In this document: in pieces, positions 230 to 59,584 of the stretch
How the letters are laid out: every line of letters begins with the position of its first letter
Position numbering within the stretch: position 1 is the first letter of the stretch
Source of the DNA: a virus
Strand: one strand, 5' to 3'
DNA length: 64,000 bases
IMG/VR virus record: IMGVR_UViG_3300027749_000102
Coordinates: 1-64,000 of that record
Notes under the pieces: model-generated
Databases searched by the model: none
What the model saw: only the letters and a program-made list of their open reading frames with translations
Told to the model about the DNA's origin: nothing
Position numbers and translations under genes: made by a program

Positions 230-1279
230 CTATGTTAATGTTCCTCCTTGAAAATATTGAGGTAAATTACCCACCCCAACATTAAAGTTTGTACCAACAA
301 AAGATGTATACATTTTATAAACTCCTGCAGGTATTGTACTTCCTGTGTAATTTATAGTTAATCCTAAATAAGTGCTTGGTAATGTCACTGCAGGCATAGA
401 ACCAGGAGAACTTCCTTGATTTATTGTTGAATATGTTTGACCGTTTGTTGCAGCTGTCGATACAAACCAAGTAACCCAACTTGTTGCTGAGAATGTTCCT
501 GCAGGAATGACAGCTGTTTGGAATTTATAGGCCTGAATTGAATTACCAAACTTATCATTTCCACCTGAAGTTGATGTAATTCCTGTCATTATAACTGATG
601 GCTCATAAACACCCCATCCTGTGTAACTTATATAAGCATTCATTTGAGAGTTAAATATTGTAGCATTTGTAGAAGGAGAACCTATTTGAGTAAATCCTTT
701 CCACGTACTTCCTTGAGATGTCATCCAAGAGGCTAAATTAATTCTTGGAATACCAGAGTTTTGGTCAATAAATGCATATGCAAATAATGGTTGATTTGTT
801 GGTGTTGGTGTTTGAGTTAATGTTGGTGTTGGTGTTGGTGTCTGAGTTGAAGTTTTAGTTTGTGTCGGAGTATTTGTTGGAGTTACTGAAGTTGTATTTG
901 TTGGCGTTGGCGTTTGAGTTTGAGTTGCAGTAGGAGTCAATCCTAAAGTCGCACTTGGAGTCGGAGTATTAGTTAAAGTTATTGTTGGTGTTGGTGTTGG
1001 CGTTGGAGTAACAGGCGTTACTGACGGTGTTGGCGTTGGAGTTGGAGTAGTACAATTGAATGTAACAACAACCCCATTTAACATTTCCGTTCTTGTTTGT
1101 GCAGAATAAACTGGAGTTGACCCTGTAGTATCAATATATACATTAAACGGACCAATCGCGTTAGAAGTTGAAGCTAATCTTACTATATAAGAAGAGCATC
1201 CTGATACAGATATTTGTTGAGCAATTTCATTATTACAACCAGAAGCAGTATTTGTTACAATTATTGAATATGTTGACAT
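230..1279 (-). CDS. Virion adhesin-like protein with Thr/Pro-rich stalk
   Basis: 349 residues in three parts. Residues 1-76 form a small Cys-containing beta-type head (SGCNN, SGCSS). Residues 77-164 are almost entirely Thr-Pro, Thr-Gln and Thr-Asn repeats. Residues 165-349 form a globular C-terminal domain with no match I recognise. TP-rich linkers are typical extended stalks in surface proteins and are possible O-glycosylation substrates; that role is inferred. The gene lies at the distal end of the tail/adhesin operon, after the SprB-repeat gene, and has its own TATTTAT promoter candidate 16 bp before the ATG. I assign a receptor-binding or decoration role on position and composition only. 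Confidence 0.6.
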
Positions 1280-6870: not shown

Positions 6871-7778
6871 TATGCTGTTATATTTGTAAAGTTTTTACTA
6901 AAATCAATATTACCGCCTCTACTTTGTCTAACCTCATATAACAATGCGTTAAATTGGTCTCTAATTTCGTATAAGTTGTATTGCCTATAAATATTATTTT
7001 GAGAATCATAGATTGTGTACACACCATCATCAATTGATTTGGTTTGATTACCGTAAAGAGCAATCGCAAGGGATGATATATCGTACTCGACCATCTCCAC
7101 TTCTATTGAAATAGGATTAAAATATGTATTTGAAATAATAATACCTTGACTTGGCTGTCCAATATATGGAGTAGCATTTGGTTTGTTTGAAGGTGATGAT
7201 GAAGGCGATAGTGTTAAAAACAATAAATTAGCACTTCCATCAACGTATCTATATCTAACAGATTTTTGAGTTGTATTAACTTCATTGGTAACAACTGGTT
7301 CACAAAAGAAGCACGAAGTTACTACTCTAAAAAAGTTTGGTATTTTTGAACCATCAGCATTTAAGTATTCTACTCTAAATCCAACAAGTCCTTGTGATAC
7401 AAACTTATTTTGATATTGAACGGGAACATTTGTTAAATCAATAACAATCCCTTTTACATTGGGTAATGCGCTCAGGACTCCGCAATCTGTGATTGTTGTT
7501 CTAATCTGGGCCGGTCTTACATATAAAGTATAAATTCCAAGAGCATTAAATTGTTGTGCCGGTAGAGTGAGATTATATAACCCGCCCAATACTTCAACTC
7601 CGGCATTTCCACCTGTTTCAGAATTATTAAAGTATGGTTTTAAAATACTTTGAGCGTCAAGTGATGTCAAGACATAGTTATCTGTAATATCACGGGATGG
7701 TGTGTAAACCATTTGGATTTCAACATCTTGTGGTGATACATCTGATGGTCTAATTGTACCGTATGAACCTATTGACAT
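6870..7778 (-). CDS. Structural protein of the baseplate operon (302 aa), unrecognised
   Basis: 302 residues beginning MSIGSYGTIRPSDVSPQDV. Predominantly beta-type, with one close Cys pair (SCFFCEP, near residue 155) and a Ser/Pro-rich turn (SPSSSPSNKP) near residue 190. The C-terminal part (YNLYEIRDQFNALLYEVRQSRGG) looks helical. I do not recognise the family. A TATTTAT promoter candidate lies 14 bp upstream, so this gene probably begins a transcription unit continuing through the 1000-residue and SprB-repeat genes. Virion role inferred from context. Confidence 0.55.
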   Translation of the reverse strand: MSIGSYGTIRPSDVSPQDVEIQMVYTPSRDITDNYVLTSLDAQSILKPYFNNSETGGNAGVEVLGGLYNLTLPAQQFNALGIYTLYVRPAQIRTTITDCGVLSALPNVKGIVIDLTNVPVQYQNKFVSQGLVGFRVEYLNADGSKIPNFFRVVTSCFFCEPVVTNEVNTTQKSVRYRYVDGSANLLFLTLSPSSSPSNKPNATPYIGQPSQGIIISNTYFNPISIEVEMVEYDISSLAIALYGNQTKSIDDGVYTIYDSQNNIYRQYNLYEIRDQFNALLYEVRQSRGGNIDFSKNFTNITA

Positions 7779-22712: not shown

Positions 22713-23714
22713 TTAAGTTTTGTTTGTGTTTCTTTTTTCTTTTCTTATTAATTTCATAAATGGTTTGAGGAAATTTACCCAAGCTTCATCGTTCTTGGGA
22801 AGATACTTAAAGAGACCATCTTCCATCATCATTCTCATTAAGTTCTTATACCCCCTATCGGTAGGGTCAATTGTGTCGTTATAAACTTCTTCTACAAATT
22901 GTTTGGATTCTTCTGTTAGTAATGGGGTTGCTAAATCAACTATTTTTTTGTTTGTAATATAAAACTCTTCACCAAGTATACCGCTTTTTGTTTTACCAGT
23001 CAAAATATTTGATAAACTTTTAATAGGTTTTTTTTGCGGGATATTTCGGGCATTATCTAATATTTCCTCAACAGTGCAGGATTTAGACTGCATTTCAGGG
23101 AAAAACTTAACTAAAGTTTTTTCTCCTAATCCCTGAATCCCATCAATATTATCTGACTTGTCCCCAACAAAAATTTTACATACCGCAACATTATAGTGTG
23201 GTATCTCAATCTTGTTTAACATAATCATATCACCATTCTTAAAGTATTGTTTAGATACTGGTGAATAAATCGTTACTCGTTCTGATATTAATTGGGTGAG
23301 GTCTTTATCACCTGAGAAGATGATAATCTGTTCGTCTTTTGCTATTTTACAGTACTGAGATATTAAATCGTCAGCCTCAACTCCAACAGCCTCAATCTGT
23401 CTAACAAATACCTCTTCAAGATATTGTTTAATCCGATTAATTTGATATGATGTTGATTCAACCTCATCCTCATTAATAAACCTATTACGATTTTGTTTAT
23501 ATTGGGGATATATTAATTTTCTTGCAGACGAATTTTCTTCTCCGTCCCATACAGCAATAACTTTATCATAGTTATACTCTTCAAGAAATTTACGAATAGT
23601 ATTGATAAAGTGGTAGATTCCACCAATCCTTCCTCCATCCTTATAAATTTCTTTTACTCCAAAGAAGCCAATTTTGAATAGATTATGAGAATCTATTAGT
23701 AGTGTTTTGGTCAC
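22713..23714 (-). CDS. rnh: 5'-3' exonuclease / RNase H (flap endonuclease family)
   Basis: 333 residues (T4 RNase H is 305). It carries the 5' nuclease metal-site series: Asp8 (LLIDSHNLF), Asp57 (AVWDGEEN), Glu-Ala-Asp-Asp at 113-116, SGDKDLTQL at 134-142, GDKSDNI at 184-190, and the helix-hairpin-helix GLGEKT at 195-200. It should remove RNA primers and 5' flaps during lagging-strand maturation. It is flanked upstream by the inserted RHH+HNH cassette, separating it from uvsX. Confidence 0.9.
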   Translation of the reverse strand: MTKTLLIDSHNLFKIGFFGVKEIYKDGGRIGGIYHFINTIRKFLEEYNYDKVIAVWDGEENSSARKLIYPQYKQNRNRFINEDEVESTSYQINRIKQYLEEVFVRQIEAVGVEADDLISQYCKIAKDEQIIIFSGDKDLTQLISERVTIYSPVSKQYFKNGDMIMLNKIEIPHYNVAVCKIFVGDKSDNIDGIQGLGEKTLVKFFPEMQSKSCTVEEILDNARNIPQKKPIKSLSNILTGKTKSGILGEEFYITNKKIVDLATPLLTEESKQFVEEVYNDTIDPTDRGYKNLMRMMMEDGLFKYLPKNDEAWVNFLKPFMKLIRKEKRNTNKT

Positions 23715-23723
23715 TTTATTTAT

Positions 23724-24425
23724 TTAATTCGTGAATAAAATTTTGTTTCCTTTTTTCAAATTATCCTCAGCCCATAGTGGTTGAAGATTTGTATAATGGC
23801 ATAACCTATAAAGTTCGTCTTCTGTTTTTGCCGATGATAATGGAATGATATGGTCAATATGCCACTCGCCCCTGTTATTCCAACTCATACCTTCTGTAAA
23901 TTGTTTTTCTAAATATTCTTTGAGTAATACTGGTGAGCAACCTATAATGTTAAAAGTTTTGTTTGATTTTTCCATTTCATTTTTTTTAACATATGAACTC
24001 ATTCTACTTCTAACCCTATTACTTAAATTGACAATAATATCTGTTTGTCTCCTAATTTTGGATTGTTCGCTAATAATTTGTCTATTTTTTTTCCTATATT
24101 CTTTTAATTTGTTTTTATTGGATTTTCTCCAATTTCTATTTAATTCTTTAACAAATTCATTTTTATTTTCATAATAGGATTTATTATATTCAGGATTATT
24201 TTTTCTCCAATTTTGTCTTTTTTCTCGTTCAATGTCAATATTATTTTCATAATATTTTTTCATTCTTTTTGAATGTTTTTCCAAATTTTCAGAATGATAT
24301 TTTTTTCCTCTTTTTTTATTACATTCTTTACAGCAATATAACAATCCGTCTTTAGATGATTTTGATTTACCAAAATCACAAACAGATTTGTTTTCAGAAC
24401 ACTTACTACAAACTTTTGTCTCCAT
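23724..24425 (-). CDS. HNH endonuclease with N-terminal zinc ribbon (cassette A)
   Basis: 233 residues. Residues 6-35 form a likely zinc ribbon (Cys6-x2-Cys9 and Cys32-x2-Cys35). Residues 40-130 are very Lys/Arg/Asn-rich with repeated Tyr-Tyr-Glu-Asn and Trp-Arg-Lys-x-Asn units. Residues 158-186 (FNIIGC, EYLEKQFTEGMSW) precede the HNH core HIDHIIPLSSAK (from 189) and HYTNLQPLWAEDNLKKG, which carries the Asn residues of the motif. Free-standing HNH enzymes of this type are usually homing endonucleases. Its first 20 bases overlap the end of the RHH gene, and its closest visible relative is the copy at 58841. Confidence 0.88.
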   Translation of the reverse strand: METKVCSKCSENKSVCDFGKSKSSKDGLLYCCKECNKKRGKKYHSENLEKHSKRMKKYYENNIDIEREKRQNWRKNNPEYNKSYYENKNEFVKELNRNWRKSNKNKLKEYRKKNRQIISEQSKIRRQTDIIVNLSNRVRSRMSSYVKKNEMEKSNKTFNIIGCSPVLLKEYLEKQFTEGMSWNNRGEWHIDHIIPLSSAKTEDELYRLCHYTNLQPLWAEDNLKKGNKILFTN

Positions 24426-24567
24426 TTTTTATATAATCTTTTAATAGTTTATTAACAAGAGAAGATAAGTTTATAGATTTATCTTTAAAGTATTGAGGTA
24501 ATTCAGGGTCAATGGACACCGCTAACTTTACTTTCTTTTTTTCATCTTCAACTTTTTTTCTTCCCAT
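24406..24567 (-). CDS. Ribbon-helix-helix small protein (cassette A)
   Basis: 53 residues: a Lys-rich N-terminus, a strand KVKLAVSIDP, then helices ELPQYFKDK and SSLVNKLLKDYIKN. This is the layout of Arc/CopG-type RHH DNA-binding proteins. Aligned with the gene at 58708, both share an R/K-rich start, K(V/I)K(L/F)A(V/I)S(I/L)DP, and S-x-L-(V/I)-x-K-L-L. It overlaps the HNH gene by 20 bp, and a TATTTAT motif lies 4 bp upstream. Probably a repressor or DNA-targeting partner of the endonuclease; inference. Confidence 0.75.
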   Translation of the reverse strand: MGRKKVEDEKKKVKLAVSIDPELPQYFKDKSINLSSLVNKLLKDYIKNGDKSL

Positions 24568-24571
24568 ATTA

Positions 24572-24578
24572 ATAAATA
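24572..24578 (-). promoter_or_regulatory. Candidate promoter of RHH+HNH cassette A (GATATTTAT)
   Basis: TATTTAT core 4 bp upstream of the RHH ATG. The 9-mer GATATTTAT at the same spacing also precedes the second cassette at 58708, and ACTTTT lies about 15-20 bases further upstream in both. Confidence 0.45.
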
Positions 24579-24615
24579 TCAACAAATATTGTAAAAGTAT
24601 AATTATTTATATTTT

Positions 24616-25605
24616 TTATTCTGTAATCTCGTCTTCAGTTTCATCAAGTTTAATTTCACCATCACCACTAAGTATTCCATTCCAATATTGGGAATATTCT
24701 TTCTTATAGATTTCCAATGCCTCCTTAGTATCTTCAATGTATCCTTGTGGTACTGCAATTAATTTACCATCAGAATAACCCAATCCATTAACATGATTTT
24801 TTAATATTGATATTTTAGTTCTAATCGCATATCTAATAGTTCTTCCTCCTTTAGTTGCTGTGATATGATTAATACCAGCACTTGCTTGATTACCAAAAAG
24901 GAATACTAATGAGGATGCTAACCATACGGCTTCACCACCCTTACTCTTAATGGTTGGTTGACCAAATGGATTATCAGGTAAAGCCACCCAAGGTTGGTTA
25001 ACCACAACTAAAGTATTATAATACGCATATTCTTCTTTTTTTGATTTGGATATCCTTGAATGAATCCCCATACCTATCTTATCAGCAAGAGCCGCTGCCG
25101 AATGCATTTTTCCACCTTTACCTTCAAAAGTCATTTTACAAGGAATAGAACCAACTGAATCCCAAAGGAATAAAATAGATTGTTGTATATCTCCTTTCTC
25201 TTGAGCATCCAATACTTCATTGATGAAGTCGGTAACTTGTTCAATATAATCGAATCCATCATTAAAGATGAAGTCACCATCCCACTCACCATCTGAGTTC
25301 TTTTTAGCATCCAATCCTAATTCAACAGCATGTTCCCAACTCCATTTCTTTTCAGTAATAATAAAGACAGGTAAATGACCTTTCTTCTGAGCATCTGCCG
25401 CAGCTAAAATCATAGCGGTTGTTTTAGAACTATTACTATGTCCCAAGAACATATTAATACCTCCCATAACAGGACCTGGTAATCCACTTGCACTTAAGAA
25501 TGCTTCACCACAATTATAGTAATTTGTTTCTTTATACTTTGTTTTTGTTGAGAACTTATCTTTAAATCCCCCTCCAACACCTTCTTTTTTCTTAATGGCC
25601 GCCAT
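24616..25605 (-). CDS. uvsX: UvsX-like RecA recombinase
   Basis: 329 residues (T4 UvsX is 391). The RecA core is visible: GPVMGGINMFLGHSNSSKTT with a relaxed Walker A (55-63, Ser in place of the second Gly, as T4 UvsX also departs from consensus), FIITEKKWSWEHA, Walker B ILFLWDSVGSI (144-153), a loop-region GKGGKMHSAAALADKIG, NTLVVVNQPW, and KGGEAVWLASSLVFLF. It catalyses strand exchange in recombination-dependent replication and repair. The start overlaps the preceding 98-residue gene by 14 bp. Confidence 0.92.
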   Translation of the reverse strand: MAAIKKKEGVGGGFKDKFSTKTKYKETNYYNCGEAFLSASGLPGPVMGGINMFLGHSNSSKTTAMILAAADAQKKGHLPVFIITEKKWSWEHAVELGLDAKKNSDGEWDGDFIFNDGFDYIEQVTDFINEVLDAQEKGDIQQSILFLWDSVGSIPCKMTFEGKGGKMHSAAALADKIGMGIHSRISKSKKEEYAYYNTLVVVNQPWVALPDNPFGQPTIKSKGGEAVWLASSLVFLFGNQASAGINHITATKGGRTIRYAIRTKISILKNHVNGLGYSDGKLIAVPQGYIEDTKEALEIYKKEYSQYWNGILSGDGEIKLDETEDEITE

Positions 25606-58648: not shown

Positions 58649-58677
58649 TATTGTAAATTTGTTTTATAGAGTATAAC

Positions 58678-58702
58678 TTTTCATACTTTATACGATATTT
58701 AT
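58678..58702 (+). promoter_or_regulatory. Promoter/operator region of RHH+HNH cassette B
   Basis: Contains TTTTCATACT (58678-58687), the 10-mer shared with the orphan RHH gene, and GATATTTAT (core 58696-58702), 5 bp before the RHH ATG, the same element and nearly the same spacing as cassette A. Confidence 0.45.
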
Positions 58703-58707
58703 AGTAT

Positions 58708-58860
58708 ATGAAACCAAGAAAAAAAGAAGAAGATAAAAAAATTAAATTTGCGATTAGTTTAGACCCTAAATTATTTAAACGAATGGAAGAAGATATTACT
58801 AATAAATCAGGGCTTATTGAAAAATTACTTAGAGAACACTATGGAAAAAAAGATTTGTAG
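58708..58860 (+). CDS. Ribbon-helix-helix small protein (cassette B)
   Basis: 50 residues. A Lys/Arg/Glu-rich start, a strand KIKFAISLDP, a helix KLFKRMEEDI and a second helix SGLIEKLLREHYG give an RHH fold. It is clearly related to the product at 24406. The last 20 bases overlap the start of the HNH gene in a different frame, with the TAG stop inside the HNH codons for Cys-Ser-Lys-Cys, exactly as in cassette A. The cassette runs opposite to the flanking minus-strand genes. Confidence 0.75.
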   Translation: MKPRKKEEDKKIKFAISLDPKLFKRMEEDITNKSGLIEKLLREHYGKKDL

Positions 58861-59584
58861 TAAATGTAAAATTGAAAAAGATGTTTGTGAGTTTTATGTT
58901 GATAAAACAAAAATAGACGGGAAATATTCTTGTTGTAAATTATGTAAAAAATCTTATTCTAATACAAGAACTGACGAAATAAAAATATACTTAAAAAAAT
59001 GGAGGCTAGATAATCCTAATTTTGGTAAAGAGTATCGTAAAAAAAACCCTAATTATGTTAAAGAATATTACCAAGATAATAAAGATATTATGTTATCAAG
59101 AGTTAAAAAACATTATCACGATAATAAAGAAAAAAATTTGGACAAATTAAGAAAACGTAGTAAAGAATATTATGAAAATAATAAAAAAAACCGTTTAGAA
59201 TATAGTAAAATTTATCGTAAAAATAACCATAATAAACGCAATGAATATGTTAAAAATAGAAAGTTAACCGACCCCATTTATCGTCTATCGTCTATAGTAA
59301 GAAATAGAATAAGAACATTTCTTAAATTAAAAAACATAACAAAAAATAACCCCACATTTAATATTGTTGGTTGCCCGCCAGAATTTTTAAAAGAATATTT
59401 AGAGAAACAATTTACTGAAGGAATGACTTGGGAATTAATGGGTCAAGATATTCATATTGACCATATAATGCCTTTATCTTCCGCAAAAACTAAAGAAGAA
59501 ATTTATAAACTTTGTCATTATACAAATCTTCAGCCCTTATGGGCTGAAGATAATTTGAAAAAAGGAGCTAAGATAAAATCTTAA
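58841..59584 (+). CDS. HNH endonuclease with N-terminal zinc ribbon (cassette B)
   Basis: 247 residues from the ATG at 58841 (MEKKICSKCK). An upstream in-frame ATG at 58817 exists, but the start chosen matches cassette A. Zinc ribbon Cys6/Cys9 and Cys32/Cys35; Lys/Asn/Tyr-rich middle with repeated Lys-Glu-Tyr-Tyr-x-x-Asn units; then FNIVGCPP, EYLEKQFTEGMTW and the HNH core HIDHIMPLSSAK with HYTNLQPLWAEDNLKKG. The C-terminal third is nearly identical to cassette A while the middle has diverged. The stop overlaps the convergent HtrL-GT gene by 4 bp. Likely a homing-type endonuclease. Confidence 0.88.
   Translation: MEKKICSKCKIEKDVCEFYVDKTKIDGKYSCCKLCKKSYSNTRTDEIKIYLKKWRLDNPNFGKEYRKKNPNYVKEYYQDNKDIMLSRVKKHYHDNKEKNLDKLRKRSKEYYENNKKNRLEYSKIYRKNNHNKRNEYVKNRKLTDPIYRLSSIVRNRIRTFLKLKNITKNNPTFNIVGCPPEFLKEYLEKQFTEGMTWELMGQDIHIDHIMPLSSAKTKEEIYKLCHYTNLQPLWAEDNLKKGAKIKS

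Follow-up and report, generated by a model that had tools for sequence, protein, structure and literature searches.

A small ribbon-helix-helix gene overlaps and appears to move with an HNH endonuclease gene in a putatively self-regulated phage cassette

Results

Two RHH-HNH gene pairs in one virus genome

The window analyzed here is the whole stretch of 64,000 nucleotides at positions 1 to 64,000 of the IMG/VR virus record IMGVR_UViG_3300027749_000102. It contains a gene for a 53-aa CcdA/Arc-like ribbon-helix-helix (RHH) protein, a proposed autorepressor (24406..24567, minus strand), whose 3′ end overlaps the 5′ end of a gene for a 233-aa HNH endonuclease (23724..24425, minus strand). According to the ORF coordinates, the overlap spans 20 nt (24406..24425, minus strand), and it is a candidate site of translational coupling. 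The RHH stop codon TAG is formed by the third base of the HNH Cys6 codon together with bases 1 and 2 of codon 7. The pair is located between uvsX (25605-24616, minus strand) and a 5′ nuclease gene (23714-22713, minus strand). A second pair is encoded on the plus strand, where a 50-aa RHH gene (58708..58860; 38% identical to the first by alignment) overlaps a 247-aa HNH endonuclease gene (58841..59584; 49% identical to the first by alignment), again by 20 nt (58841..58860) and with the TAG at the equivalent position. This pair is flanked by minus-strand genes, one glycosyltransferase-like (61254-59581) and the other encoding 126 aa (58625-58245) and adjoining DNA polymerase. The uvsX, 5′ nuclease, polymerase, and glycosyltransferase genes are what we take them to be from reading their translations. 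The two HNH genes are the only HNH copies in the 69.9-kb virus record.

A promoter-like element, GATATTTAT, lies directly 5′ of the first RHH start (24572..24580, minus strand) and recurs ahead of the second (58694..58702, plus strand), 4–5 nt before both starts. Further upstream is an ACTTTT box, a candidate RHH operator, at −31 in the first cassette (24593..24598, minus strand) and at −32 in the second (58676..58681, plus strand), where it lies within the imperfect inverted repeat AGTAT..ATACT. These observations agree with an earlier note on this DNA, which had reported a 53-aa RHH ORF overlapping a zinc-ribbon HNH gene by 20 nt, an RHH stop within the codons for the first zinc-ribbon cysteines, and recurrence of the arrangement, the overlap length, and GATATTTAT at 58708-59584. 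Elsewhere in the window, an ORF of 349 aa that includes an extended Thr-Pro repeat was observed at 230-1279 (minus strand).

Properties of the RHH and HNH proteins

The RHH protein matched Pfam CcdA at 22.7 and 24.2 bits (cut-off 22.4), and its PHROG matches were Arc-like repressors; the second-site RHH alone gave no match in a Pfam search. Across 51 distinct coding sequences, the RHH frame had a pN/pS of 0.22, indicating purifying selection, with the lowest value (0.10) at codons 31–40, the start of the second helix, and a common residue pattern was kept across 30 aligned members. The AlphaFold monomer model was of low confidence (pLDDT 68.9) and contained two helices and no strand; a fold search with this low-confidence model returned two matches only, the RelB DNA-binding domain and CdbA, both RHH proteins and neither match significant. 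Apart from 2kel (E 0.97), the matches in a profile search of solved structures were mostly repeat artefacts. On this comparison of sequences, the RHH gene called in the earlier note is confirmed as a real, conserved protein-coding gene, its reading frame being conserved between close relatives.

The HNH protein was assigned from its match to the PHROG 1035 'endonuclease VII' profile (4.8e-24), alignment, and a structure model; its Pfam HNH match was below threshold (18.3 vs 21.4 bits). By profile, both cassette HNH proteins belong to the zinc-ribbon HNH proteins of PHROG 1035, a group in which most of the distant members lack an RHH partner. The first comprises a zinc ribbon (residues 1–40), a variable helical repeat region (41–150), and a conserved HNH catalytic domain (155–228), and the catalytic motif is intact (invariant H189, D191-H192, N213, and N222 in P0002; the same in P0004). 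A look-up of solved structures with the HNH profile gave no match, and a fold search with the structure model gave nothing significant. Residues ~41–150, between the zinc ribbon and the catalytic domain, were modelled as a series of short helices. The lengths of this middle region among HNH relatives cluster at ~11- and 15-residue steps, matching sequence self-similarity in the first HNH at lags 11, 15, and 26. The region looks like a copy-number-variable repeat array and may set DNA recognition.

Pairing of the two genes among relatives

Relatives were collected using only the HNH proteins as scan queries, which leaves the frequency of RHH genes among them unbiased. Many of the loci are redundant metagenome contigs, and duplicates were removed where counts matter, with one exception indicated below. 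Upstream sequence was long enough for analysis in 94 HNH genes, of which 73 were preceded by a small ORF, or 32 of 38 once near-duplicates were removed; in this close family, therefore, most HNH genes do have the small gene upstream. As a chance control, we counted ORFs of 38–75 aa overlapping a gene start by 5–30 nt, which were present before 9 of 382 control genes, compared with 32 of the 38 distinct close HNH genes. The overlap in the paired close relatives was always 11, 20, or 23 nt; the 'exactly 20 nt' of the earlier note thus holds at both window sites but is not a constant. Also kept among relatives were the +1 frame of HNH relative to RHH and a start-to-start distance of 142, 136, or 133 nt. 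Given the constant frame, a programmed frameshift fusing RHH and HNH was considered, and was rejected because no slippery sequence common to the overlap classes and no fused ORF was seen among the loci.

In a wider sample of the HNH family, 16 of 45 genes had a small upstream ORF, comprising 11 RHH-like ORFs, three MerR-like helix-turn-helix (HTH) ORFs, and two that were neither. Ten of the 11 RHH-like ORFs were homologues of the window RHH by profile, the remaining one (L227) being assigned to RHH solely from weak matches in Pfam and PHROG. Association with an RHH- or MerR-like ORF is a minority pattern in the wider family (14/45). RHH-looking ORFs overlapping HNH genes by 14–20 nt were found in two huge-phage genomes (L199, L202, and L204), with profile support for RHH identity that was weak for L202 and absent for L199 and L204; a search of viral contigs for RHH relatives of this jumbo-phage type found none. 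An HTH regulator gene was also found in Rhizobium phage 16-3, where it overlaps an HNH gene by 47 nt. No RHH was recognised ahead of the HNH gene in bacterial and archaeal genome relatives. At six loci (L220, L223, L225, L226, L236, and L239), the HNH gene shares 14 nt with a MerR-like HTH ORF of 46–49 aa, and several of these loci have upstream regions with repeated AAAATATAGAAAA-like blocks.

Empty and occupied alleles

Next, we compared occupied with empty alleles at both sites. At the second site, 74 of 80 relatives of the adjoining gene were empty (duplicates not removed from this count), with the same 16-nt gap in all 25 empty alleles listed, while all six occupied relatives carried both RHH and HNH. 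At the first site, most near uvsX relatives were empty. Relative to the empty alleles L339-L346, the insert covers approximately 23747..24615 (minus strand), starting directly after the uvsX stop and ending at about ACAAAATTTTA in the last HNH codons, whose sequence matches the empty junction. The empty uvsX/nuclease junctions of these loci resemble the last HNH codons (23724-23746, minus strand), and the empty alleles are either deletion scars or the result of cassette insertion at a similar sequence. Related cassettes were located behind uvsX, and beside DNA polymerase, SmpB, and a helicase gene, and a decayed cassette was present in L337/L338. RHH and HNH thus constitute one unit that is present or absent at defined intergenic sites and recurs at several of them. 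The proposal of the earlier note that the RHH gene moves with the endonuclease as a compact mobile unit is borne out by the joint presence of both genes in the six occupied second-site alleles and by the 32/38 pairing.

The flanks of the first cassette were unusually divergent. Identity to the nearest empty allele was 75.2% in the near flank and 91.3% in the far flank, a difference of 16.1. For 67 pairs of empty alleles at similar distance, which are not independent of one another, the difference was 2.4 ± 3.5 (maximum 11.1). In the left arm, formed by the 3′ half of uvsX (24616..25125, minus strand), identity to the nearest empty allele was about 75–85%, rising to 90–98% beyond; in the right arm, formed by the first ~360 nt of the 5′ nuclease gene (23355..23714, minus strand), it was 63–73%, then 82–97% beyond. 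Among the alleles compared, a strong divergent tract was seen only at the first cassette of the window; L035/L036 dip by just 4 points, and most other occupied alleles had no close empty partner or showed small dips. The first-site tract is co-conversion-like, resembling the trace expected of co-conversion from a divergent donor. Overall, mobility of the cassette is well supported.

A divergent tract of this kind could also stem from plain recombinational import, and sequence does not decide whether the nuclease is active. The cassette might then be an accessory gene spread by homologous recombination, its nuclease no longer homing. We consider this quite unlikely, in view of the intact catalytic residues in both HNH copies, the use of conserved-gene stop codons as insertion points at several sites, and the repeated alternation of empty and occupied alleles together with remnants.

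Elements upstream of the RHH gene

GATATTTAT occurs three times in the window against 3.05 expected, and was rejected as a cassette-specific word because its frequency is at expectation. TATTTAT is located 11–12 nt before the RHH start in the window cassettes and is present upstream of 63 of 64 distinct RHH genes. Since it is also found 5′ of many other window genes, it looks like a promoter element, and may be the late-type promoter element of this phage group. Among the other occurrences are those 11–26 nt before the starts at 7778, 16093, 18497, 40666, 42559, 49552, 50479, and 53897. ACTTT is present upstream of 58 of the 64 distinct RHH genes, and ACTTTT is nearly absent from the upstream regions of other window genes. 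The combination of TATTTAT and ACTTTT is consistent with a phage-type promoter that carries a box specific to the cassette. The candidate operator showed weak dyad symmetry, with 10% of sequences at p<0.05, and a strong palindromic operator was rejected on these weak dyad statistics in AT-rich DNA. Of the empty alleles, 11 of 23 had ACTTTT at the nuclease gene start, as did 13 of the 41 occupied ones; an RHH box at the homing site was also rejected, ACTTTT at this position being largely set by codons.

Loci in which the partner is lost or exchanged

The existence of RHH-less HNH genes indicates that RHH is dispensable. In 13 of 15 such genes, a stop codon lies no more than 11 nt ahead of the start, which makes the leader cistron of HNH look replaceable. 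The RHH-less HNH gene lies 2–11 nt behind the uvsX stop in L009, L015, L016, L022, L024-L027, L039, L071, L073, and L074. Several of these uvsX-adjoining loci share TTAAAAATGGAAAC with RHH-bearing loci, as if the RHH gene and its promoter had been deleted between short repeats. Exchange of the nuclease was also observed. In L125, L134, and L135, a NUMOD3/TnsA-like nuclease unrelated to HNH is located behind the same RHH lineage, and in L122, L123, L179, and L182, the RHH gene is followed by a cytosine-5 DNA methylase gene with no HNH between. Replacement of one class of phage homing gene by another at the same place, including exchange of the nuclease, has been reported (PMC10448857).

The position of most RHH-less HNH genes directly behind a host stop codon would suit a small ORF that is kept only as a translational leader for termination and reinitiation, the encoded protein being incidental. 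T4 homing endonuclease genes overlap upstream ORFs by 11–24 nt, and reinitiation has been proposed for them (PMC2988022). This explanation is rather improbable given the pN/pS of the RHH frame with its strongest constraint in the helices, the DNA-binding folds encoded by most small ORFs in this slot, and the conserved box upstream of RHH.

In type II toxin-antitoxin systems, an antitoxin-first gene order with gene overlap is typical. The cassette resembles such systems (CcdA, BrnA) in RHH family, gene order, overlap, and likely autoregulation, and its RHH has Pfam matches to both the CcdA and BrnA antitoxins, which would be in keeping with an RHH antitoxin that binds and inactivates the HNH nuclease and also controls its own operon. 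However, the RHH protein (50–54 aa) is almost without a C-terminal extension that could serve as a neutralising tail, the partner shows the behavior of a homing-type endonuclease at its sites, the cassette shows no sign of a toxin, a PADLOC search of it gave no match, and HNH genes persist without RHH. We therefore regard a toxin-antitoxin-like pair as highly improbable.

Another possibility is that RHH is a targeting or licensing subunit that binds DNA at or close to the homing site to recruit or gate HNH, both proteins being needed for cleavage. Strict co-inheritance of the two genes at the second site is compatible with such a role, as is the finding that other HNH lineages repeatedly have small DNA-binding proteins in this slot. 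In 67 first-type cassettes, the mean identity was 78% for RHH, 83% for the HNH catalytic domain, and 31% for the HNH middle region. A targeting subunit should track recognition, while a regulator need not; RHH similarity was uncorrelated with similarity of the middle region, the presumed recognition region (rho 0.09), and RHH pairs at least 95% identical had a median HNH middle identity of 28%, which disfavors targeting. The role is also argued against by the occurrence of the same RHH lineage before an unrelated nuclease and methylases, by the persistence of RHH-less HNH genes, and by the RHH box being neither clearly enriched nor depleted at the target between empty and occupied alleles. Overall, a targeting subunit appears unlikely. 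The earlier note had described RHH as a dedicated partner, either a repressor or a targeting subunit; its first option stands by inference, and its second is disfavored.

Discussion

We propose, with a probability of roughly 0.6, that the RHH-HNH pair is a self-contained homing cassette, in which RHH acts as the cassette's own autorepressor and the overlapping RHH gene throttles HNH translation. The HNH protein would cut cassette-free alleles near the insertion site, and repair of the break would copy the cassette and flanking DNA into the recipient. The cassette would be transcribed from its own phage-type promoter, with TATTTAT just before the RHH start, until enough RHH protein accumulates for the dimer to bind the promoter-proximal ACTTTT region and repress transcription. 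With the HNH start codon positioned within the RHH gene, most HNH translation would come from ribosomes reinitiating after termination on RHH, presumably yielding little nuclease relative to repressor. Control of the nuclease would thus be portable and independent of the genes beside the landing site, and in RHH-less HNH genes the uvsX stop a few nucleotides upstream could act as the leader instead. The most likely function of RHH is to keep the HNH nuclease turned down. A regulator role is suggested by the CcdA match above cut-off, the Arc-like PHROG matches, the position of the regulator gene first, the conserved upstream boxes, and the MerR-like or other HTH genes that occupy this position in other HNH lineages, and exchange of the nuclease behind RHH also favors the proposal; coupling is suggested by overlaps of 11, 20, and 23 nt, which match those of T4 segF, segC, and mobA, and by the RHH-less HNH genes that start near stops.

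Some of these elements have precedents in T4. As described in the available text of PMC2988022, segC, segF, mobA, and mobC begin 20, 11, 23, and 24 bp before the end of the upstream ORF, reinitiation is proposed to limit the nuclease in these cases, translational control is not obvious for most T4 free-standing homing endonucleases, and I-TevI represses its own late promoter. Like segC, segF, mobA, and mobC, the HNH genes reported here are free-standing, lie between conserved phage genes, and have a start codon inside an upstream ORF; co-conversion of flanks is a feature of T4 homing. By contrast, that text describes no dedicated DNA-binding partner for the T4 seg and mob genes, whereas in the present cassette the overlapped ORF is itself part of the mobile unit. 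The cassette resembles I-TevI in the putative lowering of endonuclease expression by binding at a promoter-overlapping operator; I-TevI, however, is its own repressor and is intron-encoded, while a separate small protein is proposed for this intron-less cassette. Another mobile element with its own small repressor is found in CvkR, the MerR-type repressor of CRISPR-associated transposons, which differs in element, mechanism, and regulator family as far as the available text of PMC9938897 describes it. The open-access literature searched contained no report of an RHH-homing endonuclease pairing or of a dedicated co-mobile regulator gene. The view of the earlier note that such a unit is not covered by standard homing-endonuclease descriptions can accordingly be kept in part: overlap coupling and autorepression are both described for T4 (PMC2988022), and what appears to be new is a dedicated, co-mobile small gene supplying both.

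It is largely an open question how free-standing homing endonucleases are restrained once they have arrived in a new genome, and a cassette with its own regulator and a reading-frame throttle would explain how it can land beside any gene. Unrelated phages have small DNA-binding ORFs of different folds before their HNH genes, which points to a shared solution and provides a simple search signature, and the two-gene unit is small enough for direct testing.

A broader and more speculative reading, on the unlikely side in our judgment, is a general two-part selfish element composed of an exchangeable endonuclease and a small DNA-binding protein, which is RHH in this lineage and MerR-like or another HTH elsewhere. 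Besides repressing the cassette, the small protein would act on copies that are incoming or resident, either licensing the nuclease at its target or giving the carrier phage immunity of the repressor type against cassettes that compete with its own. In L179 and L182, RHH genes have persisted although no nuclease is present, which would fit the immunity part of this reading. At the four loci where a methylase gene follows the RHH gene (L122, L123, L179, and L182), the methylase gene appears to contain an intein, and Pfam confirms an intein and a LAGLIDADG domain in L123.
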